A model generated the notes under the pieces. It ran no database searches and was not told the origin of the DNA. It was given only the letters and a program-made list of their open reading frames with translations. Shown here piece by piece: positions 1-38,453 of a stretch of 38,453 nt of DNA. The position numbers were made by a program, and so were the translations under genes. The DNA lies in IMG/VR virus record IMGVR_UViG_3300009154_005275, positions 1 to 38,453 of that record. The stretch is one strand, 5' to 3'. The stretch comes from a virus. The first letter of the stretch is position 1; every line of letters starts with the position of its first letter.

Positions 1-22
1 GCTTAGATTTGTACATCATTAT
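1..22 (+). repeat. Truncated 3' tail of a leader-family element
   Basis: The first bases read TAGATTTGTACATCATTA. This matches the end of the leader tail seen upstream of several operons, for example the minus-strand copy just before the UvsW gene. The rest of the element would lie outside the window. It is followed by a degenerate tnpB 3'-end scar rather than directly by a gene. Confidence 0.45.
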
Positions 23-61
23 TTAAATTAAAAGTGAACTATACATCATCTAAAGACTAAT
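23..61 (-). pseudogene. tnpB 3'-end scar (left edge)
   Basis: Read on the minus strand, this segment carries TTAGTCTTTAGATGATGTATAG. It is a diverged form of the tnpB 3' end found at 30999-31024, in the frame (D/E)T-x-x-SL-x-D-V-stop. It follows directly after the first five codons (M-K-H-Q-T) shared with the tnpB remnant at 30573. The left copy is therefore a deletion derivative that joins the left end of that element to its right end, much like a MITE. It has no coding capacity. Confidence 0.5.
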
Positions 62-298
62 CTGTTTGATGCTTCATAGAGTATACTTCTTTACAGAAGT
101 CTAATTTGATCGCCACCTTTGTAATGGCAAGTTCCTTACCATATATTTTGAAACCTTATTTAAGAGGTTTAAAAATATAATATATACATTATATTTTTAA
201 ACTCTGTTTTTAAAAAAAGATTAAAGTGTTTAAGTTCAAATTCATCACAAAAGCTAAAATCTTCTGTGCTTTCTTTGATAACCAATGTAAAAAAAAAT
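62..298 (-). repeat. Long inverted repeat, left copy (promoter plus structured leader)
   Basis: The reverse complement matches 30354-30591 along its whole length. About 175 bp (roughly 62-237) differ at only two positions I could find; the outer part is more diverged. In the minus direction it has a partly decayed hairpin, an AT-rich near-palindromic core (TTTAAAAATATAATGTATA), then short hairpins such as ACTTC-TGTAAA-GAAGT and GCCAT-TACAAAG-GTGGC, and ends in ATGAAGCATC. It would fire leftward out of the window. It also fills the 303-base gene-free left edge. Confidence 0.8.
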
Positions 299-3903: not shown

Positions 3904-4090
3904 GGAAATGATATACATCCAAAGAAGTCTAATGATATGATATATACATATTATGCTTAAGGGATTTGTTTGTAAAATTGATCTAACCAACTCTATTGGC
4001 AAGGAAATGAAGGGTCTGCATCACTGGGACCTTTCAAAACGTCAAGATAATAAAACTCTCGCAATAGGTCTAAATTCATATATCATTACC
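3904..4090 (+). promoter_or_regulatory. Leader-family element, subtype I (upstream of 4097 gene)
   Basis: The promoter-like core AATGATATGATATATACA is near 3931-3950, preceded by CCAAAGAAG and followed by CTTAAGGGATTTGTTTG. A hairpin with arms GGGTC and GACCT lies at about 4013-4035. It replaces the ATTTCT/AGAAAT hairpin of other copies while keeping its place in the element. The tail GTCAAGATAATAAAACTC ... ATATCATTACC ends six bases before the ATG at 4097. Both ends resemble each other in inverted orientation (GGAAATGATATACATCC and its counterpart). Confidence 0.7.
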
Positions 4091-4096
4091 TAAATC

Positions 4097-6088
4097 ATGT
4101 CAAAAGGCAGGCCATTTTTTACTATAAACGATGATAAGGGTAATCCCATATCTAAAATATTCGACAACAATATTTCGGAATTATCAAATTCGGGTAAAAG
4201 AAAGGGGGATAGTGAAAGTATAGATCCCATAACGGGAAAGAAATATCCCAGAGGATTCACTCCACCTGTTGATTTTTATCAAGATCAATCGATGTTAGAC
4301 TCTTTCAAGAATAAGTCAAATACCGGATCTAATAATGGCGTAAATAAAGAGACTGGTAGACCAATAGAATATGGAGATAGTATAACTATAACTACTAAGG
4401 GTGGTATAAAAATAAATGGAGCTGGAGATAAGACTAAGACTGAATTTATAGGTGGCCAAAATCCAAAAGTTAATGTAAATTTAGACAATTTATCTAAAGA
4501 TTCTTCTTATATAAATCCAGATAACATAAATCCCGTTACCAATAGACCTGTCGAATATGGTGATCGAATAGTGAGTCTGATCACCGATAGTACGGATACG
4601 ACACCATCTTTCAAATTAGAAGAGAGATATAAGATATATGACTTCTATCAATCACAATCCAGTAAAAATTTTATTCATTTACTGGATTATTTCATAGATG
4701 CTCAAAATAATCACACGATACCCAAGATAAATGCTACCTCTCTCGATATAGGTAGTTTAAAGGATGTTTATATGGGATCCTATTTTACCAAAACATTTAC
4801 TGATAATGAGGACCCAACTATACTCGGTGTCGATATTGAATTTAAAATTAAAGATTCCCCTATATTCAATGGAAGTATCGATGATTTTATATCTGCCTAT
4901 GGGTCAAATTATACAGAAATATCATCCAGACAGGTATTTTTAGATAATTTCAAATCTCATATATTTAAATTCATAAAGCCTGATGTGAATTCTTTGGTGA
5001 ATGCTAAAGAATCAAAATACTATTTTTTGCAATCGATAAAAGGACTAGATAATTTAATGCCAAGCTCTAAAAAACAATTCGCAAAATATCCTGAAGATAA
5101 AATTGATTTAGAATTCCTAGAAGATGTTTCTCAAGATATGGGTTATCTATCTTCCTTATACAGAACCCTATCGGTATCTAAAATAAACGGGAAGGACATC
5201 ATACTAGAGAATTTACTTAGATTTGATATTGATATAACTATTTCAGAAATAAGAAATTATAAAAGAACTATCATCGACCCAAAAAATCCTAAGAGAGCTC
5301 TTGTTTTCCAAGATCAGATTTCTAAATATACATATAGATTATATGAGTGTCAATTTATATTAGATCAAATGCCCCATGGTGATTCAGTTTCTAATGGAGA
5401 TATTACTCCAGTAAAACCCTATAATATATCATTTAATTATAAATTTTCTACTATGAAATTTATAAAATTCAATGGTAATGTTACTTTAAATCCAGATGGC
5501 ACTTGTAAAATAGATTACTTCCTGATAAATAATAAACGCAAAAATTTAATCAAGTATGGATCATCTGAGAGTAATAAAATATCAGATAATGGGGATCTAC
5601 TGAGTCCAGACATCATATCCAATCGAATTGAGTCTTACCCAACTATACCGTCGGCAGTGGCCCCCGTTTTTGGACTCGATGAGATAGTTCCCAGCCCAAA
5701 TGATACATTAGGTTTCGTTGGTTCACTGAAAAATATAACTCCAACGATAGAAGATCTCAAGAAAGCAGAAGCTTCTAAATTAAAAAATACACAAAATCAA
5801 TTAAACCCGAAATCAATTAAAGCTAGACTTGCTCGGTCCATCAATTTTGACCAGCTAGAAAGGGGTTTAATAAACGCTGGCATAAGGCAAGCTAACCGGA
5901 CAATATTAGTACAGGCCGCCCTCTTAAATCGTGCCATAGACCAAATAAGGAACTCTGTGCCATATGCGGGAAGGATTAACCCACCCAATAATGTATATAC
6001 GGATACAAACATATTTAAGAATGATGTGATAACAGAATTTAGAAAACAATTTGGTAGATCTTTGAGATCGTTCATCACTCCTCCTTAG
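4097..6088 (+). CDS. Hypothetical large phage protein, probable virion component
   Basis: I do not recognise this 663-residue protein. The N-terminal 160 residues are polar and carry three copies of a short motif, DPITGKKYPRGF, NKETGRPIEYGD and NPVTNRPVEYGD, roughly 60-90 residues apart. This suggests a flexible linear region with repeated binding or docking sites. The middle is mixed alpha/beta and the last ~120 residues are helical and basic. It is alone behind a subtype I leader, the same leader class that precedes the baseplate hub gene and the probable neck gene, so a late virion role is inferred. Its last codons are duplicated in the 142-bp tandem repeat. Confidence 0.72.
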   Translation: MSKGRPFFTINDDKGNPISKIFDNNISELSNSGKRKGDSESIDPITGKKYPRGFTPPVDFYQDQSMLDSFKNKSNTGSNNGVNKETGRPIEYGDSITITTKGGIKINGAGDKTKTEFIGGQNPKVNVNLDNLSKDSSYINPDNINPVTNRPVEYGDRIVSLITDSTDTTPSFKLEERYKIYDFYQSQSSKNFIHLLDYFIDAQNNHTIPKINATSLDIGSLKDVYMGSYFTKTFTDNEDPTILGVDIEFKIKDSPIFNGSIDDFISAYGSNYTEISSRQVFLDNFKSHIFKFIKPDVNSLVNAKESKYYFLQSIKGLDNLMPSSKKQFAKYPEDKIDLEFLEDVSQDMGYLSSLYRTLSVSKINGKDIILENLLRFDIDITISEIRNYKRTIIDPKNPKRALVFQDQISKYTYRLYECQFILDQMPHGDSVSNGDITPVKPYNISFNYKFSTMKFIKFNGNVTLNPDGTCKIDYFLINNKRKNLIKYGSSESNKISDNGDLLSPDIISNRIESYPTIPSAVAPVFGLDEIVPSPNDTLGFVGSLKNITPTIEDLKKAEASKLKNTQNQLNPKSIKARLARSINFDQLERGLINAGIRQANRTILVQAALLNRAIDQIRNSVPYAGRINPPNNVYTDTNIFKNDVITEFRKQFGRSLRSFITPP

Positions 6089-6204
6089 AGAAAATCAAAC
6101 ATTGGTCGAAAAAAGCTGCAACATTATGATATATACCCCCCTATCTAACTGGCCTTATCGACTTTTTTTTAATCTTTAGAAAAATATAACTTTTCCTGTG
6201 AATT
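6073..6204. repeat. Tandem duplication, unit 1
   Basis: This unit begins inside the last codons of the 4097 gene (CATCACTCCTCCTTAG) and runs through the intergenic region. It ends with a copy of the last codons of the minus-strand gene 6333-7043 (TTAGAAAAATATAACTTTTC). The offset to unit 2 is 142 bp. It therefore holds a dead copy of the convergent neighbour's C-terminus. Confidence 0.9.
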
Positions 6205-6214
6205 TAAGATTATC

Positions 6215-6361
6215 CATCACTCCTCCTTAGAGAAAATCAAACATTGGTCGAAAAAAGCTGCAACATTATGATATATACCCCCCTATATATACCCCCCTAT
6301 CTAACTGGCCTTATCGACTTTTTTTTTAATCTTTAGAAAAATATAACTTTTCCTGTGAATT
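6215..6361. repeat. Tandem duplication, unit 2
   Basis: This is the second copy of the convergent-gene junction. It starts with a dead copy of the 4097 gene's last codons and ends in the live 3' end of the 6333-7043 gene. It differs from unit 1 mainly by an extra internal copy of CTATATATACCCCC and one additional T in a poly-T run. Confidence 0.9.
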
Positions 6362-7111: not shown

Positions 7112-7231
7112 TTGCCTATGGTGATGTCTGTTTCAGGGATTGAGTCGGGCATTAAACAAAAAAAGGTGGAGGAGTTATCGTTAGATAAGTCCATGAAACC
7201 TGAAACACATCAGTCTTTAGCTGGTGTGTTG
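7112..7231 (+). pseudogene. tnpB 3'-end remnant fused in frame to the next gene
   Basis: This open segment encodes SGIESGIKQKKVEEL and then KSMKPETHQSLAGV, which looks like a TnpB C-terminal tail. The nucleotides GAAACACATCAGTCTTTAGC closely match the tnpB 3' end near 30996 and include the same hairpin (7206-7228: CACATCAG, loop, CTGGTGTG). In the other scars the codon after GV/DV/HV is TAG. Here it is TTG, so the frame stays open into the gene starting at 7262. The TnpB assignment comes from that nucleotide match and from memory of the family. Confidence 0.5.
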
Positions 7232-7261
7232 TTCCTTAACAACAAAAAATATTATATTATA

Positions 7262-7720
7262 ATGAACAACATTACATCATTCGATTCATTCAACGAATCC
7301 AATTGGATACAGGGAGCTATCAATATTAAAAATAAAGGAGCTTTGCGTAAACATTTCAATAAAAAGAGTGGAGATAGTATAAAGATGTCTGAAATAGAAT
7401 CTGAACTTGACCATCTTGCCACCAAGGATAAAGACCCTAAAAAACCTGGTCTACAACTTTCTAAAAAGGATAGAAAATTACAAAAGAGATTGGTGTTGGC
7501 AAGGACTTTGAGAAAACTAAATGAAAATGAAAATCTCGAAAACTATATGTTTTTCAGAGATATCCATGTTATGAAAAGGATTATCGATGATATGGTCGAA
7601 ATGATTGAAAATGATGAAATGGGTATAGATAGTATTATATCAAATGGTCATAATTGGATATTGGATCACATTGCAAAATCAAAAGAAAACATGGAACAAG
7701 TTTACGATTTCCTAAAGTAG
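7262..7720 (+). CDS. Small conserved phage protein with GAL(R/H)K motif
   Basis: This is a 152-residue protein from ATG at 7262; the frame is open further upstream, but that part looks like a tnpB scar. The N-terminus MNNITSFDSFNES fits the capsid-targeting-like pattern. Residues ~15-80 read WIQGAI...KGALRKHF, then KMSEIESEL, then LQLSKKDRKLQKRLVLARTL. This matches a recurrent small tailed-phage protein I recall as 'GALHKALGV...KIP...LAKTL', of unknown function. The rest is helical and acidic. A strong terminator follows. Translation could also begin upstream and add the tnpB-derived tail as an N-terminal extension. Confidence 0.72.
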   Translation: MNNITSFDSFNESNWIQGAINIKNKGALRKHFNKKSGDSIKMSEIESELDHLATKDKDPKKPGLQLSKKDRKLQKRLVLARTLRKLNENENLENYMFFRDIHVMKRIIDDMVEMIENDEMGIDSIISNGHNWILDHIAKSKENMEQVYDFLK

Positions 7721-9579: not shown

Positions 9580-10275
9580 CTAAAAATCAAAAACTTTTTT
9601 TGTAATATTTACTAAAATTTTATTTTCTTTAAAGATTGTGTAATTTACACCATCCATAGAATTTAATTCATCTTCTATTTTGAATTTGTTTGACATGGAT
9701 ATATCACCTCTATAGGACACTTCCATGACTTCTGTGGATTCATTCACTCTTAGATCTTCTTTTATAAGATTTATATCATACTCTATGGAAGTAATGTCTA
9801 TACCATATCCATTCTCTAAAATATTTTTTATGGTATTTTCTATTTTATAAACTTGATGGTCGTCCTCTTGTTGGGAAATCACGATATCTTCTTCATGGAT
9901 CACATCCAATATAGGCTCCACATCTAACAAGTACATATGGTCAAACCTTTTTTCCCTAAATATATTTATGATATCCTCCGAAAGGTTATCATAAGTCGAT
10001 GTTCTATCTATCCAAACATTGTTTTTGAGTGGATTTGTCGAATATGACCAACATATAACATCTTTTATTAAATCTGGTGTATTTATTATAGCCTTAACCT
10101 CTAATCTCTTGTAATCATTACATTCTTTAACATGACATACTTTATTTGCGTTTATATCAAAGAATGCAGTTTTGTAGAATTTACTTTTTATTTGAACATT
10201 TTCGAAGAATTCCTTTAGATCAAAATCTAATTTATTAATTCTTGATTTAATTTCTTGTTCCATTTTTAATTCCAT
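9580..10275 (-). CDS. Hypothetical protein
   Basis: I do not recognise this 231-residue protein. ATG at 10275 is chosen over the in-frame GTG at 10287; ATG at 10263 is also possible. It is rich in Lys, Glu and Ile, with two regions of regular beta-strand-like alternation (KVCHVKECNDYKRLEVKAII and the C-terminal YTIFKENKILVNITKKVF). No catalytic motif, signal peptide or membrane segment is visible. It is directly downstream of a leader-family element, which suggests it is expressed together with other leader-driven genes. Confidence 0.72.
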   Translation of the reverse strand: MELKMEQEIKSRINKLDFDLKEFFENVQIKSKFYKTAFFDINANKVCHVKECNDYKRLEVKAIINTPDLIKDVICWSYSTNPLKNNVWIDRTSTYDNLSEDIINIFREKRFDHMYLLDVEPILDVIHEEDIVISQQEDDHQVYKIENTIKNILENGYGIDITSIEYDINLIKEDLRVNESTEVMEVSYRGDISMSNKFKIEDELNSMDGVNYTIFKENKILVNITKKVFDF

Positions 10276-10298: not shown

Positions 10299-10430
10299 GG
10301 TAATGATGTATGTGACTCTAACCACAGACATTTCTATCAGTATCTGTTTTTTTGAGATGTGGTTGGGTCAAACTTGTAAACGAATGCATTAAGCATAGTG
10401 TATATATCATATTATTAATCTTCTTTAGGG
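10299..10430 (-). promoter_or_regulatory. Leader-family element, subtype I (upstream of 9580-10275 gene)
   Basis: On the minus strand it reads CCCTAAAGAAGATTAATAAT, then ATGATATATACACTATGCTT, then ATGCATTCGTTTACAAG, a hairpin region (CAGATA ... TGTCTG), and a short tail ending ACATACATCATTACC. Core and spacing match the other subtype I copies, but the long CAAGATAGTAAAT tail is missing. The tail ends 23 bases before the ATG at 10275. Confidence 0.68.
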
Positions 10431-20973: not shown

Positions 20974-21062
20974 CAATTAGTTTATTTTTGTGGGGCTAAT
21001 TAAACAGACATTTTATTTTATTTTTGTGTCCGAAATCGTTTTTTGTGAACGATATTTTTTGG

Positions 21063-21150
21063 GTAATTATATATGAATCTAAATCTCTTGGTTGAGTTTT
21101 GAGAGTCCCAGTGACCTAGGTGCCTCGGGTGTAGATTTTTATATAATTAC
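21063..21150 (-). promoter_or_regulatory. Diverged leader element folding into a long stem with two inner hairpins
   Basis: GTAATTATATA pairs perfectly with TATATAATTAC, and inside it AATCTA pairs with TAGATT across a 2x2 loop, giving 17 pairs. Between the arms are CTCT...AGAG and CCC...GGG arms, the latter containing ACCTAGGT. This has the shape of a three-way junction. On the minus strand AAAACTCAACCAAG ... AGATTCATATATAATTACC parallels the leader-family tail (AAAACTCACCCAAG ... CATACATCATTACC). It is upstream of the protease-scaffold gene; no other feature is seen in 20974-21233. Confidence 0.6.
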
Positions 21151-21233: not shown

Positions 21234-21626
21234 TTAATAATCTCTTATTATCTGAGAATTTGAAAATTTACTTAAATTTCCAAACAAATCACTGATAAGA
21301 TTTTGATCCTTTCTGAAGTCATTGAAAAATATTAATACATTGAAATGGTTTTCCTCACCAAGGAGTTTTTTAATATTGATCAGTCTATCGATAGAGAAGT
21401 CATAATTAAAATCGGGCAAATAATAAATATCTTTCTTTTTTTCAAGGGCCTGTTGTATTTTTTGATTTATCAATATTTTTAAATATGTCCTATCTACAAA
21501 AAAATCTATTTGCTCTTCTTCCATTATTTTCTTGATATCAATAACATATTTATTTTTTATGTTATTGACTTTTAAATATTTATCAAGTTTTTTTCTGGTT
21601 TTTACATAAACACAATAAAAATGCAT
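21234..21626 (-). CDS. Hypothetical protein
   Basis: This is a 130-residue, Lys/Ile-rich protein starting MHFYCVYVKTRKKLDKYL, from ATG at 21626 (an in-frame TTG precedes it). Strands and helices alternate, with FNVLIFFNDFRKDQNLISDL near the end. I do not recognise it. It is driven by a subtype II leader-family element and lies upstream of the head genes on the same strand. Confidence 0.65.
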   Translation of the reverse strand: MHFYCVYVKTRKKLDKYLKVNNIKNKYVIDIKKIMEEEQIDFFVDRTYLKILINQKIQQALEKKKDIYYLPDFNYDFSIDRLINIKKLLGEENHFNVLIFFNDFRKDQNLISDLFGNLSKFSNSQIIRDY

Positions 21627-21661: not shown

Positions 21662-21864
21662 GGTAATGATGTGCAAATTTACGTCACTTGAGTGAGTTTT
21701 AATTTACTATCTTGACGTTTCGAAAGGTTTTGGTGATCCATTAGTCTTGACGTCCTCGATGGGCGATACCTGCCCTGTATGATCTCCCAAGTATGGATAC
21801 ATTAATTGTATGAACGAACCCTTTGAGAGTAATGTATATATCATATTACTGGTCTTCTTTAGAT
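21662..21864 (-). promoter_or_regulatory. Leader-family element, subtype II (upstream of 21234-21626 gene)
   Basis: On the minus strand: CATCTAAAGAAGACCAGTAA, ATGATATATACATTACTCTC, then the subtype II centre (GATCATACAGGGCAGGTATC, GCCCATCGAGGACGTC, AATGGATCACC), then CGAAACGTCAAGATAGTAAA, CTCACTCAAGTGACG and CACATCATTACC. GGGC and GCCC can pair around AGGTATC. The tail ends about 35 bases before the ATG. This is the best example of subtype II. A 61-codon open frame inside it is not a gene. Confidence 0.75.
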
Positions 21865-26671: not shown

Positions 26672-29329
26672 TTAACCGATTATTTTTTTACGCAATTCTT
26701 CGAAATCTTTAAATTTGTTGAGAAGATTTCCTATATCTGATTTAGATTTGTGTGGTCCAGAAGTTGCTTTAAGGATAGTAAGATTTTTTTTACTGTCGAC
26801 GCACCCAAGTATTTTTAGTGATTTTATTATTATATCGGCTTCCTTAACATTTTCTAAATCATCGACATAAGAATATTTAAATTTTACCTTTTGGCCGTCC
26901 TTTAACACAACATCTCCCTGTTCAGGAAATTCTAAAAATCCAGCATATGTTTCTGATGGTTTAGGTTTAAAATTATCCATTTTTATATCTTTTCTATCAC
27001 TTAGATAAGAGTTTATTATATCTTGGTTTGGCCCCAATTGACACTTTAGTATAATAACATTATCTTTTTTTGGTTTCGCATATACGAAACATATCATTGA
27101 TTTACTATTCTTATTATCTATTTTATCACCACTGAACTCAATTTTGATAAATGATCTATGTAATTTTCCATTTTCATTAAAATCACTTTTTATTAGAGTC
27201 TTCCTGGACGCTCCCAGAAGTTGATAAAGGGTATAAAAATCAGCTGTGTTCGGTTCCCCCATTTCTTCTTTGGGTATTTGAGGATTATCGTTTGCTATAA
27301 CTTTACCTGATTTATCCTCTACCTCTTTACCAATAGTTCCACCAAAATATTTACTTAATAGTTTATGTCTTCTTTTAGTAAAGCTACCACTTTGATCATC
27401 TTCATTGACCATATCATTTATAAAAGTGAATAAAGTTAGACCGGCCCCTTCTTTTTGATATGGTCCAACATTTTTGAATTTAGAATTTGATAAAATAGAT
27501 CTGTATTTAGTGTCACTTAAAATTGACATAATCTTATCTTGCCATTTTTGATATATTTTAATAACTGCCCATGGACCAAATCCAGCAGAACTCTGTTCAG
27601 TCCACCCGGGAACCGATGAACCAGATCCAATATATTTATATTCACGGAAAGTCTTAAGTGATGTTCTACCATTTGGTCTTCCAGATGGGATGTAGTCAAC
27701 TGCATATAATCTATATGCTTTCCCGAAAACTTCCACTATTTTTATTATTAGATCCATGTGTTTTTCGGGATCTATTTCGACTTTTTTATTTTCACCAATT
27801 TCGTTTTTCAGTGCATTTGCTTTTTGCGCATCAATGCTGTATTTTTTCTCATCGTCTTTGGTAAATTCTTTTTCCCATTTTTCTATGACGATATCCTCAT
27901 TTTCACCACCATCGCTTTCCAAAATTATCGATTCGTTCGACTTTTGATTCGATAATGTCTTTTTTATAAATTCATATCCATTTATGAAATTTTCTATACT
28001 TTTGGAGGCTTCCCCAAATGATTTTATCAAGGATCTATCTTCTTTCAAAGAAAGAATGACTCTAGATATAAGTGAAATTGATTTTGGTATATCTTTAAAT
28101 TCTGAATATGGGTGGAGAGATTGAGTATCCTCTTTTATCAAATCTTCAAAACTTAATTTTTTTCCTATGGTATTTTCATCTTTAATTACTTGAATAAAAA
28201 TTTTTGTTGATATGTCTCTGTAATTTTTAATACCCCCGCTTTGAAGTATATTGAGAAGATCTGTTATTTGTTTAGACACCACATCCATATTTGAATTCTT
28301 GAAAGAATTCTTTATTTTAATCCAAGCAGATCTTGCGTGAGTTTCATTTTTTCCTATAATAATCGCATTTTCTAAAATAAAAAGGGATTCATTTTTAGGA
28401 AGTTTAAGTTCATTTGACCCGACTAAAAAAGACTTTGATTGATCATCATACTTATCAGTTTTTGGATTTTTTTGAACGACCAATATTTTTGGAGATATTG
28501 GTTTTCTATTATCCACCACATCGTCTTTTGTTAGATATGTCTTATCGGGGCCTGCCTTTTGAATAAACTTTGTGTTTATTATTTTTACCAGGTTATTTTT
28601 GTAATATACTTCCTTACCTGGATCTAGACCGAGTGGATTTCCCGATTTTATATTCTGAGTTGACGCATCGACTTCCACGGTCACTCTATTACTCAATATT
28701 ATTTGATGTATTCTAATTAAAGACTCAAAAATCATCTTGGAATTTTTTATAAAGGAAATTCCTTTTTTATCTTCATCTCCACCATCCACATTTTTTTCAT
28801 CTTCATCTCCACCATCCACATTTTTTTCATCTCCACCATCTACATCTTTTTCGAACCCTAATTCTTTAAGCGATTTTAAGAAATTCTCTAACTTTTCTAT
28901 GAGCTCTTCTTTATCTTTTAAATTTTCTATTTTTTTTATAGATTCTATTGTTTCTTTGACTAGTCCCGGATTAGAATCGCCCTCTACTAAAATCGATATT
29001 TTTTTTTCAACAGAATCTCCACTTCTAACAACTTTAATTATTTCATTTATGAGGGATCTAGTTTCCAATTCTTTGACTTGGACCATCTTCTCATCATCAA
29101 TCCTAGATACCACCAATAACTCATCTAAATATTTTTCGAGTTTTTTTGATAACGGATCTATACCCGATTGATTTATGGATATCTTAGCCTTTCTCAAAGT
29201 TGAGTTTATAAATCTACCCAATAGAGAGCCTCCCAAAGTTATATCATTTTCGAATGTCTCAGTAATTAAATCTGAATTCTCATCTGATCTTTTTTTTATA
29301 AATTCATTTCTTTTCTGTAAATAAATCAT
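26672..29329 (-). CDS. Large hypothetical protein with acidic tandem repeats, probable virion protein
   Basis: I do not recognise this 885-residue protein. Residues ~170-200 carry a tandem acidic repeat (NVDGGDEDEK units). The region around residue 560-620 (YKYIGSGSSVPGWTEQ, FGPWAVIKIYQKWQDKIMSI) resembles a segment I recall from large T4-like phage structural proteins with a 'GPW....y.kW...i..i' signature; this is weak. The protein is charged and helical, with no membrane segments. It is driven by a subtype II leader and coupled to the 172-residue gene downstream, then the sheath gene. Confidence 0.72.
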   Translation of the reverse strand: MIYLQKRNEFIKKRSDENSDLITETFENDITLGGSLLGRFINSTLRKAKISINQSGIDPLSKKLEKYLDELLVVSRIDDEKMVQVKELETRSLINEIIKVVRSGDSVEKKISILVEGDSNPGLVKETIESIKKIENLKDKEELIEKLENFLKSLKELGFEKDVDGGDEKNVDGGDEDEKNVDGGDEDKKGISFIKNSKMIFESLIRIHQIILSNRVTVEVDASTQNIKSGNPLGLDPGKEVYYKNNLVKIINTKFIQKAGPDKTYLTKDDVVDNRKPISPKILVVQKNPKTDKYDDQSKSFLVGSNELKLPKNESLFILENAIIIGKNETHARSAWIKIKNSFKNSNMDVVSKQITDLLNILQSGGIKNYRDISTKIFIQVIKDENTIGKKLSFEDLIKEDTQSLHPYSEFKDIPKSISLISRVILSLKEDRSLIKSFGEASKSIENFINGYEFIKKTLSNQKSNESIILESDGGENEDIVIEKWEKEFTKDDEKKYSIDAQKANALKNEIGENKKVEIDPEKHMDLIIKIVEVFGKAYRLYAVDYIPSGRPNGRTSLKTFREYKYIGSGSSVPGWTEQSSAGFGPWAVIKIYQKWQDKIMSILSDTKYRSILSNSKFKNVGPYQKEGAGLTLFTFINDMVNEDDQSGSFTKRRHKLLSKYFGGTIGKEVEDKSGKVIANDNPQIPKEEMGEPNTADFYTLYQLLGASRKTLIKSDFNENGKLHRSFIKIEFSGDKIDNKNSKSMICFVYAKPKKDNVIILKCQLGPNQDIINSYLSDRKDIKMDNFKPKPSETYAGFLEFPEQGDVVLKDGQKVKFKYSYVDDLENVKEADIIIKSLKILGCVDSKKNLTILKATSGPHKSKSDIGNLLNKFKDFEELRKKIIG
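28757..28852 (-). repeat. Tandem repeat of about 30 bp in coding sequence
   Basis: Two copies of a 30-bp unit plus a 27-bp variant (CATCTCCACCATCCACATTT, plus strand) encode VDGGDEDEKN-type units in the 885-residue protein. It is an expandable acidic linker. Confidence 0.88.
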
Positions 29330-29348
29330 TTGTATATTTTTTTTTAAC

Positions 29349-29510
29349 TAATGAGGTGCAGATCTAAATATTTTGGGTGAGTTTCGATTTATTATCTTGG
29401 CGCTTCGAAAGATTCCAGTAACCCAGTCACTTTCACGTTCCCATCGGACAATACCTGCCTTGAATGATCCCCATCCCCCTATATATCATAATATCAACCT
29501 TCTTTAGTCG
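29349..29510 (-). promoter_or_regulatory. Leader-family element, subtype II (upstream of 885-residue gene)
   Basis: On the minus strand: GACTAAAGAAGGTTGATATT, ATGATATATAGGGG, the subtype II centre (AAGGCAGGTATTGTCCGATG, GGAACGTG), then CGAAGCGCCAAGATAATAAA, CTCACCCAAAATATTTAG and CACCTCATTAG. The start codon follows about 20 bases later, after an A-rich run. The region is divergent: the plus-strand gene at 29549 begins just beyond the promoter core. Confidence 0.7.
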
Positions 29511-30353: not shown

Positions 30354-30591
30354 ATTTTTTTACATTGGTTATCAAATTCATCACAGAATTTTTTAACTTC
30401 TGTGATGAATTTGAACTTAAACACTTTAATCTTTTTTTAAAAACAGAGTTTAAAAATATAATGCATATATTATATTTTTAAACCTCTTAAATAAGGTTTC
30501 AAAATATATGGTAAGGAACTTGCCACTACAAAGGTGGCGATCAAATTAGACTTCTGTAAAGAAGTATACTCTATGAAGCATCAAACAGAAA
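30354..30591 (+). repeat. Long inverted repeat, right copy (promoter plus structured leader)
   Basis: Nearly identical to the reverse complement of 62-298. It opens with a perfect 17-bp hairpin at 30372-30414 (TCAAATTCATCACAGAA and its complement, 9-base loop). The AT-rich near-palindrome TTAAAAATATAATGCATATA follows around 30450-30470, then hairpins such as GCCAC-TACAAAG-GTGGC and ACTTC-TGTAAA-GAAGT, ending in the first codons of the tnpB remnant. It fills the 356-base gap after 30216. The 30217-30353 part is AT-rich with nothing identified. Confidence 0.82.
30372..30414. other. Perfect 17-bp hairpin upstream of the repeat promoter
   Basis: TCAAATTCATCACAGAA pairs with TTCTGTGATGAATTTGA across the loop TTTTTTAAC. 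It is decayed in the left copy (around 237-287) and shortened to CACAGAAG/CTTCTGTG at 38298-38320. The stem lies before the promoter-like core, so it may be an operator, a terminator of the upstream transcript, or an element end. Confidence 0.75.
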
Positions 30592-31024
30592 AGAAATATG
30601 ATGTGATATTTCTTGAAGATTTAAACATTAAAGGAATGATTAAAAACCAAAAACTAGCTAAACATATCAGTTATGCTAGTTGGGGCACTTTTAAATTATA
30701 AAGCTAACTGGAATGCTAAAGAAATCATTGAAATTGATAATTTTTTTCCTTCAAGTAATCAGTGCAGTTCTTGTGGGTGGATCAATCAAAATCTAAAATT
30801 GGATATACGAGAATGGACTTGTCCATCTTGTAATACTGAATTAGATAGAGATTTCAATGCGAGTAAAAATATCCTAAAAGAAGGAATAAAAATATTATCG
30901 TCTAGGACGGGCGATCACAGATGTGGAGATGAAATAAGACCAGTTTTAACTGGCAAAATCGTAGAATCATCTAAAAAGAAGGAGCTTGTCTCCGGAAACA
31001 TATCAGTCTTTAACTGATGTGTAG
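30573..31024 (+). pseudogene. Truncated, frameshifted tnpB (IS200/IS605-type accessory gene)
   Basis: This is the C-terminal half of a TnpB, the RNA-guided nuclease family of IS200/IS605 elements. Frame 1 from 30573 encodes YDVIFLEDLNIKGM, with the RuvC-II glutamate, and SYASWGTF. A small deletion then shifts the frame, which resumes with LNYKANWNAKEIIEIDNFF, the zinc ribbon CSSCGW...CPSC, and DRDFNASKNIL (RuvC-III aspartate). A second shift affects the tail: SPETYQSLTDV-stop is in another frame. The whole N-terminal part, with the RuvC-I aspartate, is absent, so it cannot be an active nuclease. The 3' end keeps the hairpin CATATCAG/CTGATGTG (30999-31021). No TnpA transposase is present. Confidence 0.85.
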
Positions 31025-31090
31025 TCCATAACACTTGGGGCAGTTTTGATTTACTATCTTGACGTTTCTTTGTATATTCTAAAGAAACGC
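31025..31090 (-). promoter_or_regulatory. Leader-family tail truncated by the tnpB right end
   Basis: On the minus strand TTTCTTTAGAATATACAAAG, AAACGTCAAGATAGTAAATC, AAAACTGCCCCAAGTGTT is the conserved leader tail. It is cut off where the tnpB 3' end begins, with the CATCATTACC part missing. It shares its promoter palindrome with the plus-strand leader that follows, so this was a bidirectional element. Confidence 0.65.
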
Positions 31091-31254
31091 GATAATATAA
31101 TATGATATATATCATATTATGACTAAGGTATTTGTTTACAAGCTTGGTCCAACCATATCTTGAAAGGAAGCAATTTCTTTTAGAAATGTCTTGTGAAACC
31201 TCAAGATAGTAAATGAAAACTCACCCAAGTGGTGTAAATTCATACATCATTACC
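31091..31254 (+). promoter_or_regulatory. Leader-family element, subtype I (upstream of 31270 gene)
   Basis: A perfect 24-bp palindrome at 31097-31120 (ATAATATGATATATATCATA and the rest) is the promoter core. GACTAAGGTATTTGTTTACA, AGCTTGGTCCAACC, a hairpin ATTTCT-TTT-AGAAAT within GAAGCAATTTC...GAAATGTC, then CTCAAGATAGTAAATG, CTCACCCAAGTGGTG (hairpin CACC-CAAGT-GGTG) and CATACATCATTACC follow. The ATG is 16 bases further on. This is the most complete copy of the family. Confidence 0.78.
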
Positions 31255-31269
31255 CTTCACCCACATTAC

Positions 31270-32028
31270 ATGAGCGCAATTAGCATAGAAGAATTCATTG
31301 ACATTGTTCAATCAGACATAACTGTATTTGGAGCACTTCCTAAAAATTTGCCCGATGCTTCAATAAGACAGTTCATCGAAACGAGAGCCCTTAATTGGTT
31401 CTATCAAAATTATCAATATTCGGTATCCAAAGTCTATTATTATATAAATAAACAAATTTTTTCAACAGAAGAATACTCCAAGTATAGTTATATAGAGCTT
31501 CCCTGTGAAATACAATCCATAACATGGATCCATCAATTGCAACAATCTCAACTTCTTCAACTTGGAATAAATACACCAAACTTGTCGGTAAATTTGGGGG
31601 TCAGTAATCAGCCTTATCTATCATCTTATGTAACCACAATCGGTGAATTGGGTGTCTATAAAACTGTTATAGACTCCATGTCTGATATGTTAAATCAACT
31701 CAGTTTGCAAACAATTAAATTTCATTTTAATCAATTATCACATCGATTGAATATATTAACCCAAGTTAGATATGATTTAATATTGGAAACATATGCAAAC
31801 ATTCCCGTTGAGAATTTATTTACCGATACATACTTCACCAAATACGTCACGGGTTGGGCAAAGATGCAACAGGGTAGACTCCTGGGAACATTTGATTTCA
31901 TTTTACCTGGTGGAGTAAAATACAATTCACAAGATATGATATCTCAAGGAAAAGATGAAATGAAAGAAGTTGAAGAGGAAATAAAATCAATGAGTAATAG
32001 TTCATTTTTCTATATGATAAGAAAATAA
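31270..32028 (+). CDS. Probable head-tail connector/neck or other virion protein
   Basis: This is a 252-residue protein from ATG at 31270; the frame is open upstream, but those codons lie in the leader. The N-terminal half has LPDASIRQFIETRALNWFYQ and strand-rich ELPCEIQSITWIHQ. The C-terminal half is helical (QTIKFHFNQLSHRLNIL, YTKYVTGWAKMQQGRLLGTF) and ends FILPGGVKYN...GKDEMKEVEEEIKSM. That last segment, 'F..pGg.k.n...l...g..e.e.vEeel', is one I recall from T4-like neck or structural proteins, so gp13-like is possible but weak. Expression from a subtype I leader supports a late role. Confidence 0.7.
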   Translation: MSAISIEEFIDIVQSDITVFGALPKNLPDASIRQFIETRALNWFYQNYQYSVSKVYYYINKQIFSTEEYSKYSYIELPCEIQSITWIHQLQQSQLLQLGINTPNLSVNLGVSNQPYLSSYVTTIGELGVYKTVIDSMSDMLNQLSLQTIKFHFNQLSHRLNILTQVRYDLILETYANIPVENLFTDTYFTKYVTGWAKMQQGRLLGTFDFILPGGVKYNSQDMISQGKDEMKEVEEEIKSMSNSSFFYMIRK

Positions 32029-32044: not shown

Positions 32045-32710
32045 ATGAAAATGAATGAAATGAACAAAATTTTCTCTTATAGAGATTTTACCCAAGACAC
32101 TCTTTGGGTATTTGATTTAGATGATACACTTGTAAATACACCATCATTTGAATCAAGGGCTATAGAATATCTCACTGAGAGTAGTAATATAGAAAAGATG
32201 TTAAATCATTCAGTTTCCATTATTGGCAGGTCTTTGAGTGATTTATGCATAGAAAATGGTCGAATATACATTGAGGATCCCCAAAATTTATTCAAAAATT
32301 ATGGTGTTTGGATAAAGAAGGGGAATAGATTATATCTAACTGCCCCCGAAGAATTCTCCACTTCTGATATTTCTATTCCAACAAGTGTCAGAGAAGATAT
32401 TATTTCAATCTATAAGAACTCTAAGAATAAATCAATAGTCACTGCCAGATCCGAGGAAATGAGACCGAAAATAGAAAAATGTCTTTTGGATCTGGGAATA
32501 GAATATCCAAATTTTGGACTCCACATGTATCCATATAAATCATATAGTAAAGTTGCTATATGGAAATCAGAAAAAATAATTCAATTATCAAAAGACTTTA
32601 ATTTCATGAAAGTTAAATTCTTTGAGGATAATCAAAAATGGATAAGAGATATAAGAAAGCAAGTGCATAATAAATATCCATCTTTAGATTTTGAAGCTTT
32701 CAAGGTTTAG
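32045..32710 (+). CDS. HAD-superfamily phosphatase-like protein
   Basis: This is a 221-residue protein with the HAD motifs: WVFDLDDTLV (nucleophile Asp24 and Asp26), the IVTARSEEM motif II threonine, and VKFFEDNQKWI (acidic motif IV). HAD enzymes of this size act as phosphatases on nucleotides, sugars or nucleic acid ends; the substrate is open. The first ATG is at 32045, but ATG at 32060 gives MNKIFSYRDFTQD, the shared capsid-targeting-like motif, so packaging in the head is possible. Its stop overlaps the end of the convergent polymerase fragment by four bases. Confidence 0.85.
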   Translation: MKMNEMNKIFSYRDFTQDTLWVFDLDDTLVNTPSFESRAIEYLTESSNIEKMLNHSVSIIGRSLSDLCIENGRIYIEDPQNLFKNYGVWIKKGNRLYLTAPEEFSTSDISIPTSVREDIISIYKNSKNKSIVTARSEEMRPKIEKCLLDLGIEYPNFGLHMYPYKSYSKVAIWKSEKIIQLSKDFNFMKVKFFEDNQKWIRDIRKQVHNKYPSLDFEAFKV

Positions 32711-34209
32711 ATCAATTCGGATTCGAGTTTTTTGATCTCATCCATAACCTTTTTGAGTTCTTCCTTTTTTTGGAGCATTATCTTCTTATTCCTTTTTCTA
32801 TCTGCAAAAACATCTTCTAACATTTTTATAGTAGGTGAGTTTCTTTTCTCAAAAACGACTCCATTGCTACACAATACATGTTTTTTGGTATCTATCTCAA
32901 TTCCATTATCACAAAATTTATCATTTGATTTGTCTTGGACTCCTATGAAATTTTCGGGTGATATATAGAATTGTCTTTGGACAGTTGGATATAGGCTAGA
33001 AAAGTCATATGTCAAACACCATTGATTCATACCCAAGACTGGATCTTTAACCCAACCACCTGAGATTTGACTCGAATCAGATTTATCTCTTTCGGGTTTA
33101 AATAGTATTATATTATCCTGCTCTCTGAATCTGTTTCTGAGTACACCCTCGGTTATGGCCAAAGACGCAAGTGCATTGTTTGGCTGGGAGATCACATCCA
33201 CTATTCTAATCTTCGATAGTGCCGATATGGCAAATATGATCGAGATATAGTTTCTCGAATCGTGTATTTTCTGAACAAGAACTGAGTCAACACAGTTGTA
33301 ATACATGAATTTCTCAAAATCTTCCTCATATAATTTTTGTAGCGATCCCGAGTATTTTATCTTCTCGACACCGACCAATTTACTTGAAACGAAATCTAAG
33401 GAAGATGATTCTTTTACTTTAATTGAAGTATCACATACCTCATAGAGTTGCATGTAATCGAATATCATTCTATGAGCAGGGATTTCTTGATTGGTCATCC
33501 AGACTTTATTGAGTCTTTTCGTGGGAGATGATACCGATGGATCTATCGAATATTGTCTTCCGTCTAAATCTTTTTTTATTTTCCTAGCTCTGTTTACTAA
33601 ATAAATCCAGTCATAATTCAAAAAATTCCATCCCGTTATGAGTGGCATCTTGGGAACCATTTTATAGAAGAAGTTATGGAGCATATCGAATTCATCTTCA
33701 TATTTTATATATTTTAATTTATAATCGGCATTGAATTTCTTAAAATATTTATTGGTGTTATCTTTTATTCTGAGTCGCATATCTTCAGGCATCTCTTTGA
33801 GACCAAGTAAGACGATCTTATCTTCAAACACGATCGATATAGATAAAACCCTCGTCGGTGCAGTCTCTGCATCGGGGAATCCAACCTCATTCAATATCTC
33901 AGTTTCGATATCGACAAAAAATATCTTAGGTATGTTGTATTCAAATATTTCGTCTTTGACATCATCTGGTAAATAATCTAAAAATTCATAAATCGAATAT
34001 CGGTCTGGGATCGAGACTGGTTCTGATTTGACTGCTTTCTTGTCCCAAGATCTAAATATTGGATTTTTATCTGGGTCATCCTCAGAACAATTTACATATT
34101 TTGTCGGATTTTCCCAATCAAAATATTTCAATTTTATCTCCCTGTCCTTATCGACATAGCTTATTACTAATTTTTTACTGTTTGTTAAGTATTGAGTATC
34201 TATGAGCAT
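32707..34209 (-). CDS. Family B DNA polymerase, N-terminal part (split gp43)
   Basis: This is a 500-residue N-terminal portion of a T4 gp43-type replicative DNA polymerase. The 3'-5' exonuclease motifs are intact: FFVDIETE (D100, E102), NFLNYD (ending D200), and YYNCVDSV (Y304...D308). Polymerase motif A, DFSSLYPT, starts at D402. The protein then ends in a charged helix (MLQKKEELKKVMDEIKKLES) in the region that forms the fingers in T4. It lacks motif B (K...NSxYG) and the catalytic DTD motif. T4 gp43 has 898 residues. The second half is not anywhere in this window; a convergent HAD gene occupies the space after its stop. Splits of gene 43 are known in some T4-like phages of Aeromonas. Confidence 0.93.
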   Translation of the reverse strand: MLIDTQYLTNSKKLVISYVDKDREIKLKYFDWENPTKYVNCSEDDPDKNPIFRSWDKKAVKSEPVSIPDRYSIYEFLDYLPDDVKDEIFEYNIPKIFFVDIETEILNEVGFPDAETAPTRVLSISIVFEDKIVLLGLKEMPEDMRLRIKDNTNKYFKKFNADYKLKYIKYEDEFDMLHNFFYKMVPKMPLITGWNFLNYDWIYLVNRARKIKKDLDGRQYSIDPSVSSPTKRLNKVWMTNQEIPAHRMIFDYMQLYEVCDTSIKVKESSSLDFVSSKLVGVEKIKYSGSLQKLYEEDFEKFMYYNCVDSVLVQKIHDSRNYISIIFAISALSKIRIVDVISQPNNALASLAITEGVLRNRFREQDNIILFKPERDKSDSSQISGGWVKDPVLGMNQWCLTYDFSSLYPTVQRQFYISPENFIGVQDKSNDKFCDNGIEIDTKKHVLCSNGVVFEKRNSPTIKMLEDVFADRKRNKKIMLQKKEELKKVMDEIKKLESELI

Positions 34210-34212
34210 TTT

Positions 34213-34755
34213 TTAAAAATCTATATCGAAATAATTCAACTCATTTCCATTCCCATCTGACAGTAATAGATCCGAGTTTTTAAAAACTTGGTATTGATAA
34301 TATCTTCCTATTTTAAATAGGCTTTTTATGAAAGGTATATCTACATTATTTATGTTTATCCGATCTTCATCGACCATAAGACATAATACCCTTTTATCAT
34401 CATCGGTGACATAGTTTACGATTTCCTCGTTTAAATCTTTATCAACCCCCTTTTTAGAGAAACAAATAAATTTGGTTTCCAATACTTCCCCCGTAGGTAA
34501 CCATTTAATGAAAACATCTGTGTATGGGTCTATCTCCATTTCTTCTTTGAGGTAAACACGAACCCAAAAGAATACCCTTTGTTTTTCCTTAACTTCAACT
34601 TTCAAATCAAAATCCACTTTTTCAAAATCCACATTACTCACATCAATTGATTTTATGCGATCCTTTATATCATTATAAAGGGCATCGATACTTTCTAGAT
34701 TTTTTTTAATTTCTTTTCTTTTGGGGAAAACATAATTATTATCTATTTCGATCAT
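34213..34755 (-). CDS. Hypothetical protein upstream of polymerase part
   Basis: This is a 180-residue protein, MIEIDNNYVFPKRKEIKKNL, with alternating strand and helix segments (FDLKVEVKEKQRVFFWVRVY, VFIKWLPTGEVLETKFICF). I recognise no family. Its stop is four bases before the polymerase start, so the two are probably co-translated and may act together. It is expressed from the minus side of a bidirectional leader element. Confidence 0.7.
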   Translation of the reverse strand: MIEIDNNYVFPKRKEIKKNLESIDALYNDIKDRIKSIDVSNVDFEKVDFDLKVEVKEKQRVFFWVRVYLKEEMEIDPYTDVFIKWLPTGEVLETKFICFSKKGVDKDLNEEIVNYVTDDDKRVLCLMVDEDRININNVDIPFIKSLFKIGRYYQYQVFKNSDLLLSDGNGNELNYFDIDF

Positions 34756-34798
34756 ACTAGTTCATTTAATTTTTTGGGAATGGCTCACTATTACAAAA

Positions 34799-35006
34799 TG
34801 ATTATATACAAATCTGTAGCCACTTGGGCCAGTTCTGATTTACTATCTTGGCGCTTCTTTGTGTACCATGAAGAAGCTTAATAATATGATATATATATTA
34901 TGCTTAAGGCATTTGTTTACATGCTTGAACCAATCGTATCTTGGAGAGAAGCAATTTCTTTCATGAATGTCCTCCAGCACCTAGGTTAAAATTCTACTAA
35001 TCATCA
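34799..35006. promoter_or_regulatory. Bidirectional leader-family element (polymerase operon and hub gene)
   Basis: The core CTTAATAATATGATATATATATT lies around 34877-34900 between divergent genes. To the right is the subtype I sequence GCTTAAGGCATTTGTTTACA, GCTTGAACCAATCG and GAAGCAATTTC...GAATGTC, reaching the ATG at 35007 without a full tail. To the left, read on the minus strand, is the conserved tail CGCCAAGATAGTAAATCAGA, GGCCCAAGTGGCTACAG and TATATAATCATT, reaching the 34755 start after about 45 bases. It shows the two halves of the element serving different strands. Confidence 0.72.
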
Positions 35007-36479
35007 ATGTCAATTGAAGAATTAAAGAAGCGTATTTTTGTCGGGGTCGTTGAAGACAATAATGATCCAAAAAGATTGGGTAGGTGCCGAATTAGGGTAA
35101 ATAATGTTTTCGATGAACTTCCCGTTGAAGATATCCCATGGTCCACACCATGGAAAGATTTATCTGGACATGAATTTGATTTACCCCCAGTCGGTAAGGT
35201 GATGGCAGTCATATTCGATAATGGTAATCCTTATAAACCAGAATACATCTATGCTAAACATTTCAATGCTAACCTAGAAAAGAAACTCACAAAAGTATCA
35301 GAAGAGGATTACTTATCATTTTCCTCTGTACATTTCGATGAGATGACCCAAATTTACAGAAATAAAAGTGAGGGACTTAAAATAGATCATGAATATACAA
35401 ATATAAATTTAGATAAAAATGGAAATATAAATCTAAATCTGAGAGACAATGATGCCAAAGTATTAATTGGGTCCCCTGATTCCGCACAAGCAGCCATCTT
35501 AGGAACTTCATTCATGGCTTGGATGGATACTCTTGTCGACAATTTATTAGGTGAAAATGGGGGCCCATATTTGGGAAATCTTGGGGCTCCAGTTATAGCG
35601 AATCCAGCACTTATTCAGTGTTTAATAGAGTATAGACTTTCTAGGGATCCAAAGTTCCTATCAGAACGTGTTTGGATTGTTGACAATAAAGAAGTGAAGA
35701 GCCAAAAAAGAGACTATGACAACACTCAGGGTGATAATTGGAAATCAACCGTGAGGGAAAATAATCTAACAAAATCTTCTCCCGTTTCCTATGCCCCACC
35801 AGATAGTCCTGTTACGGGGAGACCCGAGGTACTGGATCCATCTATACCAAATGATATTCACTCCCAAACCATTACCTCTGAGGCAAGTATGAAAACTGTC
35901 AACGTATCCAATTATGATAATGGTCAGATACCACTCGATAAAATGAAAAAGAATAAATTTTTATCCAAGAGCCTAGGTGGAGATTCTTCTTATCTGATGT
36001 CAGAGGCTTCTGATTCTTTGGATGCTTTGATGAATGCCTTCAATAATGCATCTTTCAAGGGAAAGCAATCAATTACTTTTACCGATGGTTATCGATCCTT
36101 ACAGAGACAAGAAGCCATGTTTGCCAAATATGGACAAGGAAGAGCGGCAAAACCAGGTACATCTAACCACGGATGGGGGATAGCGATAGATATATATTGG
36201 GGAATTAGGACTAATATGTTTAAGGATATAGATTCTAGACCATCAGCATTTAAGCATCCAAATTATATTTGGTTTTTTGAAAATGGCCCAAATTTTGGTT
36301 GGTTTAATCCAACTAAACTTAGAGATGATAGTAAAACGGATGAATGGTGGCACTGGGAGTATCATGGTAAGAGCCAAAAACAAGTTATTTTGGTGAGTAG
36401 ATATAAGGGTGACTTCACCGAAGATGATATATCAAATATAAAAAAATTCGGAGGTACTTTCAATGGAAATATTTCTTAA
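35007..36479 (+). CDS. Baseplate hub protein: gp5-type OB domain plus M15 peptidase
   Basis: This is a 490-residue tail protein. Residues 8-90 (FVGVVEDNNDPKRLGRCRIR, then PPVGKVMAVIFDNGNPYKPE) form the gp5/VgrG-type OB fold of the central tail spike. Residues ~110-230 look like a linker with structural strands. The C-terminal ~150 residues are an M15 peptidoglycan peptidase (D-Ala-D-Ala/L-Ala-D-Glu type): DGYRSLQRQEAMFAKYGQG, GTSNHGWGIAID (zinc ligands H388 and D395) and EWWHWEYHG (H449). In T4 gp5 this place holds a lysozyme domain, so the wall-cutting chemistry is different. It is alone behind a bidirectional leader. Confidence 0.92.
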   Translation: MSIEELKKRIFVGVVEDNNDPKRLGRCRIRVNNVFDELPVEDIPWSTPWKDLSGHEFDLPPVGKVMAVIFDNGNPYKPEYIYAKHFNANLEKKLTKVSEEDYLSFSSVHFDEMTQIYRNKSEGLKIDHEYTNINLDKNGNINLNLRDNDAKVLIGSPDSAQAAILGTSFMAWMDTLVDNLLGENGGPYLGNLGAPVIANPALIQCLIEYRLSRDPKFLSERVWIVDNKEVKSQKRDYDNTQGDNWKSTVRENNLTKSSPVSYAPPDSPVTGRPEVLDPSIPNDIHSQTITSEASMKTVNVSNYDNGQIPLDKMKKNKFLSKSLGGDSSYLMSEASDSLDALMNAFNNASFKGKQSITFTDGYRSLQRQEAMFAKYGQGRAAKPGTSNHGWGIAIDIYWGIRTNMFKDIDSRPSAFKHPNYIWFFENGPNFGWFNPTKLRDDSKTDEWWHWEYHGKSQKQVILVSRYKGDFTEDDISNIKKFGGTFNGNIS

Positions 36480-38113: not shown

Positions 38114-38135
38114 CTCAATTCTTAGGTAATGTTAA

Positions 38136-38280
38136 GGTAATGATGAACAAATCTACACCATTTGGGTGAGTTTTAATTTACTATCTTGATGTTTCCAAAG
38201 ATATTGGTAGTCCAAGCACCTCCACGTCCTCACTGGGTGATACCCGTTCTGTATGCTCTTTGATTCGGGACATATTTATA
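38136..38280 (-). promoter_or_regulatory. Leader-family element, subtype II (upstream of UvsW gene)
   Basis: On the minus strand it begins with ATATAAATATG, which contains TATAAATA, the T4 late promoter consensus, instead of the usual ATGATATATA core. The subtype II centre (GCATACAGAACGGGTATCAC, CCAGTGAGGACGTGG) and tail (AACATCAAGATAGTAAATTA, CTCACCCAAATGGTG, TTCATCATTACC) follow. GGGT and ACCC can pair around ATC. The ATG is about 22 bases after the tail. Confidence 0.72.
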
Positions 38281-38290
38281 TTGATCGTCA

Positions 38291-38453
38291 AAGAAAACAC
38301 AGAAGTCTTTACCTTCTGTGATGAATTTGGACTTAAATAATTCTAACACAAGGTTATAATTATTGTTTAATGGTGTTTGGATTAGCTTCTCCAATAGAAC
38401 ATACAAAATAATTTACGATATTTTAAAAACAGTGGTTTAAAATATAATGTATA
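38291..38453 (+). repeat. Diverged partial third copy of the long-repeat promoter
   Basis: CACAGAAGTCTTTACCTTCTGTG hairpin (38298-38320), then GATGAATTTGGACTTAAA and, near the window end, TTTTAAAAACAGTGGTTTAAA with ATATAATGTATA, in the same order as 30381-30460. The middle differs. It would fire rightward out of the window. No gene is seen in the last 340 bases. Confidence 0.6.

Follow-up and report, generated by a model that had tools for sequence, protein, structure and literature searches.

The window, which is the whole stretch of DNA analysed (a virus contig of 38.5 kb; 38,453 nucleotides), encodes a set of T4-like proteins: the major head protein, head maturation protease, tail sheath, and head–tail adaptor, as well as a DNA polymerase, a UvsW-like helicase, a baseplate hub/lysozyme-like protein, and a DNA helicase. 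The contigs of relatives reached via the sheath protein measure up to 476 kb; therefore, the source of the window is probably a jumbo phage. The window is part of the phage genome, the repeat family counted in it comprises about nine copies, and start codons are predicted throughout. In comparison with two relatives of 436 and 476 kb (G008 and G035), the gene order in the window is strongly shuffled, and many core proteins are 50–70% identical. The DNA polymerase encoded at 32707–34209 is only 500 aa long and covers positions 101–504 of 856 in PHROG 262 as well as nearly all of the 502-position PHROG 2062, so that it may be a split polymerase; both large relatives are ~70% identical along this stretch. 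A tandem duplication of ~142–157 nt with ATTATGATATATACCCCCCTATC is present at 6089–6332 between two convergent genes.

The intergenic regions of the window carry about nine diverged copies of a repeat, each of roughly 130–240 bases, as well as sequences derived from IS605-type elements. The copies (lettered a to i) and the two main IS605 derivatives are distributed as follows.

3–22, plus strand: copy i, last 20 nt only, weak (E 0.05)
34–298, minus strand: internally deleted IS605 derivative, 235 nt of which are 96% identical to 30355–30589 on the opposite strand
3904–4092, plus strand: copy a, ATATATA at 3940–3946, TnpB-like start at ~3953, end 4 nt before the ATG at 4097
10299–10430, minus strand: copy b, ATATATA at 10407–10401, end 23 nt before the ATG at 10275
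21060–21122, minus strand: copy c, weak, 3′ module only (held-out E 3.7e-5)
21662–21864, minus strand: copy d, long centre, ATATATA at 21841, end 35 nt before the ATG at 21626
29345–29510, minus strand: copy e, ATATATA at 29486, upstream of the portal-like gene 26672–29329
30355–31034, plus strand: IS605/TnpB remnant with a left-end hairpin, a broken tnpB C-terminal part (Pfam PF07282, E 1e-19), and a right end; abuts copy f
31012–31254, plus strand: copy f, two-armed, forward 3′ module at 31185–31254, end 15 nt before the ATG at 31270
34795–35000, plus strand: copy g, two-armed, between the divergent genes 34213–34755 (minus) and 35007–36479 (plus)
38134–38274, minus strand: copy h, 5′ module missing, adjoins IS605 left-end sequence

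The repeat family is real. Two nhmmer profiles, one for the 5′ module (~70 nt) and one for the 3′ module (~70 nt), were used in a leave-one-out scheme, with the tested copy withheld from profile building. The held-out E values range from 5e-7 to 2e-17 for the 5′ module and from 4e-5 to 6e-17 for the 3′ module, which bears out the recurrent intergenic family reported in the preliminary description of this DNA. Of the shared motifs, TCAAGATARTAAA with at most one mismatch (8 occurrences versus 0.69 expected) and AATATGATATATA (12 versus 0.96) are in excess over shuffles, but CATCATTACC taken alone shows no significant excess over them (6 versus 3.1), and exact CACCCAAGTGGTG occurs in one copy only. 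The positions of the listed elements were likewise recovered, with the corrections that the second, inverted 3′ modules at 31.0 and 34.8 kb had been missed, that the element at 38.1 kb is devoid of the 5′ module, and that the one at 1–22 is weak. In copy f, the inverted 3′ module occupies 31012–31070 (minus strand), and the centre is the palindromic AATATGATATATATCATATT; in copy g, the inverted module is found at 34795–34860 (minus strand). An assembly artefact arising via the repeat is unlikely because the longest identical run between copies is only 24 nt.

All nine main 3′ ends, with both arms at 34.8 kb counted, are followed by a same-strand ATG at a distance of 4–89 nt, in agreement with the initial observation that the copies adjoin start codons. 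A random intergenic position and strand has such an ATG with p = 0.18, and nine out of nine would occur by chance with a probability of about 2e-7, if the copies are independent. Convergent gaps contain no main 3′ end. Copies are present on both genome strands, and thus a replication-strand bias does not explain their orientation. The orientation had been said always to follow the gene served; this applies to the nine main 3′ ends, but the inverted arm of copy f at 31.0 kb faces the TnpB remnant and not a gene start. In copy g, each arm faces one of the two divergent genes. Copy i is cut off from the gene 304–1974 by the IS605-derived insertion.

The elements were originally interpreted as a structured 5′ UTR RNA family controlling the stability or translation of late mRNAs. 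Such a family would be consistent with the location of the copies just before start codons, with the ungapped conservation over 126 nt among three copies, and with a fold z-score of −2.9 for the palindromic copy at 31.1 kb. However, this is the only copy with such a score: in six of the seven sense strands, the z-scores versus shuffled sequence lie between −0.9 and +0.9, i.e., the remaining copies fold no better than shuffles. RNAalifold detected 0 conserved pairs in the seven-copy alignment, and in the alignment of the three most alike copies the covariation term amounted to a net penalty. Moreover, the hairpin CACCCAAGTGGTG is lost in several copies, and the centre of the repeat, of which there are at least two unrelated-looking types, is not alignable over all copies. 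Thus, no significant covariation was found, the repeat has no conserved RNA structure, and a structured RNA family is an improbable explanation. The remark that no named RNA family fits was correct in that Rfam gave 0 matches at the gathering threshold. An internal short ORF (MLKAF...) was considered as a regulatory leader peptide and rejected, as it is lost in copies d, e, and h.

Another feature ascribed to the elements, their own promoter, is upheld at the level of the motif: the promoter-like heptamer ATATATA is located at the 5′ end of nearly all copies. In the relatives, ATATATA is the commonest upstream 7-mer, found in 215 of the 328 genes with a free upstream region, where it peaks 25–40 nt before the ATG and usually takes the form T[TA]ATATATA. 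In two complete-looking relatives, it lies close to the ATG in about one third of the genes with free upstream DNA; hence, the motif is not universal. The late promoters of T4 contain a TATAAATA-like −10 element and are active with gp55/gp33. By analogy with the T4 TATAAATA, ATATATA appears to represent the late promoter core of this phage group.

Within the window, copy-bearing genes have ATATATA (in copy h, a TATAAATA-type motif 167 nt before the UvsW ATG) at −118 to −215 in every case, though the assignment is less clear for copy c, around which ATATATA occurs both upstream (21164) and downstream (21074), and for copy h, where the standard 5′ module has been lost. For most copies, this upstream motif falls inside the copy, at its 5′ end; in window genes without a copy, ATATATA is nearer to the ATG or absent. 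Both two-armed copies (31.0 and 34.8 kb) bear ATATATA on both strands, in copy g at 34889–34898. The copies' own form of the motif, GATATATA, is rare in the relatives (3 of 328). The relatives' orthologues of UvsW, the gp14-like adaptor, and the portal-like protein have ATATATA ~20–40 nt before the ATG, with no copy inserted. The placement upstream of many phage operons, as described earlier, therefore holds for the studied phage but not for the orthologous genes of its relatives, which are without such a leader. Transcription would start inside the copies, and the simplest reading is that a copy replaced a short native leader. By supplying both the motif and a long leader, it would account for the motif being 118–215 nt upstream in the window versus 25–40 nt in the relatives.

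The 5′ part of the repeat bears a resemblance to TnpB genes. In copies a, b, f, and g, an ATG comes directly after the promoter motif and opens a reading frame with the consensus MLKAFVYKLDPT. A matrix built from 15 TnpB N-termini was used to score 76,834 sequence windows of the studied DNA, and the top three belong to copies b, f, and g. The score of the MLKAFVYKLDPT consensus is reached by 2 windows among 2.4 million in the relatives, both of which read as TnpB starts, and in the two jumbo relatives no M-initiated window attains the scores of single copies. The sole Pfam match of the TnpB-like start is HTH_OrfB_IS605 (profile positions 1–20, E 0.12, below the cut-off), and a search with the degenerate peptide pattern MLK[AG]FVYKL found no TnpB with such an N-terminus. 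The C-terminal-like peptide QVSPIEDVKTNGSPKPFETSR was also considered as a TnpB C-terminus and discarded, having no tblastn match, no Pfam match, and no codon-position bias (26/22/24). Several phage-borne TnpB genes (L086, L087, L091, L092, L103, and L132) have the TTAATATATA promoter motif directly or shortly before the ATG, an arrangement like that in the copies; phage-borne TnpB transposons thus look as if they had adopted phage expression signals.

The right end of the IS605 family consists of a hairpin plus TAGTTCA. Four such ends in the window are recognized by a DNA model built on right ends of phage IS605 elements. This model has no match to the 3′ module and hits only separate IS605 remnants, and for this reason no IS605 origin is claimed for the module. 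Inspection of the flanks of the copies revealed no target-site duplications or clean mobile ends, and searches for an intact parent element found none. On balance, a TnpB ancestry of the repeat is somewhat more likely than not. Other traces of IS605 in the window include a left-end fragment at 38275–38342 and the predicted protein 7118–7720, whose first ~40 residues (7118–7240) match a TnpB C-terminus plus right end (right-end model, E 1e-12); the true start of this gene may be further downstream, or the gene may be a fusion.

The copies might also be selfish non-autonomous TnpB/IS605-type (PATE-like) intergenic insertions without a role, whose orientation is a by-product of insertion preference. 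The TnpB-like start, the presence in the window of clear IS605 remnants and of a derivative with an internal deletion, and the deletions varying from copy to copy all agree with this possibility, but it is made unlikely by the direction of the main 3′ ends (nine of nine aimed at a gene start and none in a convergent gap), by the presence of copies on both genome strands, and by the 3′ module being no IS605 right end.

The repeat has a narrow known distribution. No copies were detected in 80 relative loci or in the relatives of 436, 476, and 78 kb, and a similarity search of phage records yielded no copy; weak matches in L007 and L009 are isolated, short, and without the rest of the repeat. Scans of viral and prokaryote genome collections for both modules gave no true copy, with two matches that look like chance; these scans relied on exact patterns and may not cover records near-identical to the window, so that copies may be present in close relatives. 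The 436 and 476 kb relatives have intergenic repeats of their own, which differ from the family described here, most of them being tRNAs, terminators, AT-rich promoter stretches, or coding-like repeats. The repeat is best read as lineage-specific and mobile-looking, and its copies would have moved as units.

Six of the seven testable copies are situated at synteny breaks with respect to the 436 and 476 kb relatives, but breaks are common throughout the window, and the excess at copies is not significant (Fisher p 0.14–0.19). Such a location would be expected if the copies were recombination cassettes, i.e., repeats that mainly mediate gene shuffling and carry a promoter that makes the shuffled module work, as proposed for PeSLs (see below). 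Given how common breaks are and that identity between copies extends over 24 nt at most, this is the least probable of the explanations considered.

The preferred reading, to which a probability of roughly two in three may be given, is that of a promoter-plus-leader cassette dispersed in the genome of a large T4-like phage and specific to its lineage, possibly derived from an IS605-type TnpB element. The 5′ end of a copy would bring the ATATATA promoter core that the phage group uses before its genes, followed by an untranslated leader of 100–200 nt without conserved RNA structure. The copies would have taken the place of the native short promoter/leader before at least eight genes, which they would now drive; copy g, at 34.8 kb, could do so for both of its divergent neighbours. 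The likely ancestor would be a TnpB element of the IS605 type that began with a phage-type promoter and whose internally deleted remnants were kept as promoters. A fuller scenario is proposed only tentatively: a TnpB transposon may have acquired a phage promoter, and its internally deleted copies may have been domesticated genome-wide as long-leader promoters. In this way, the late operons of one jumbo-phage lineage would have been rewired, with the copies marking where modules were shuffled. The cassette reading, if true, would show a way for a large lytic phage to rewire many operons simultaneously: a small repeat with the phage's promoter takes over from the native promoters of genes for structural and DNA-replication-related functions in one lineage. 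It would also provide a late-type counterpart to the early-promoter cassettes of T4-type phages, as well as a connection between TnpB elements and phage regulation.

Among known systems, the PeSLs of T4-type phages have been described as “mobile regulatory cassettes” (Arbiol 2010; Comeau 2014, as cited in PMC4503421). As far as that account goes, the repeat (~130–240 nt) resembles PeSLs in being a dispersed intergenic cassette of a T4-like phage that bears a promoter (here by motif) and is oriented to the downstream gene start. It may also share with PeSLs a location at the boundaries of shuffled modules, as six of seven testable copies lie at synteny breaks, a non-significant excess (Fisher p 0.14). 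It differs in that a PeSL consists of an early promoter together with a stem-loop terminator, whereas the repeat has a motif of the TATA (late) type and no conserved stem-loop. PATEs of the IS200/IS605 group are comparable in that the copies start like TnpB behind a promoter and true IS605 derivatives are present in the same window; unlike them, the copies share neither a common IS605 left-end hairpin nor an IS605 right end, and no intact parent was found. Correia elements, which are promoter-carrying MITEs (PMC10969869), are also small dispersed repeats that bring a promoter upstream of genes; here, however, the host is a phage and the promoter is of the phage type, and neither consistent terminal inverted repeats (only two copies are two-armed) nor target duplications were seen. 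By analogy, and within the scope of the cited account of PeSLs, the repeat would work like PeSL cassettes and promoter-bearing MITEs, which appear to be the closest systems.
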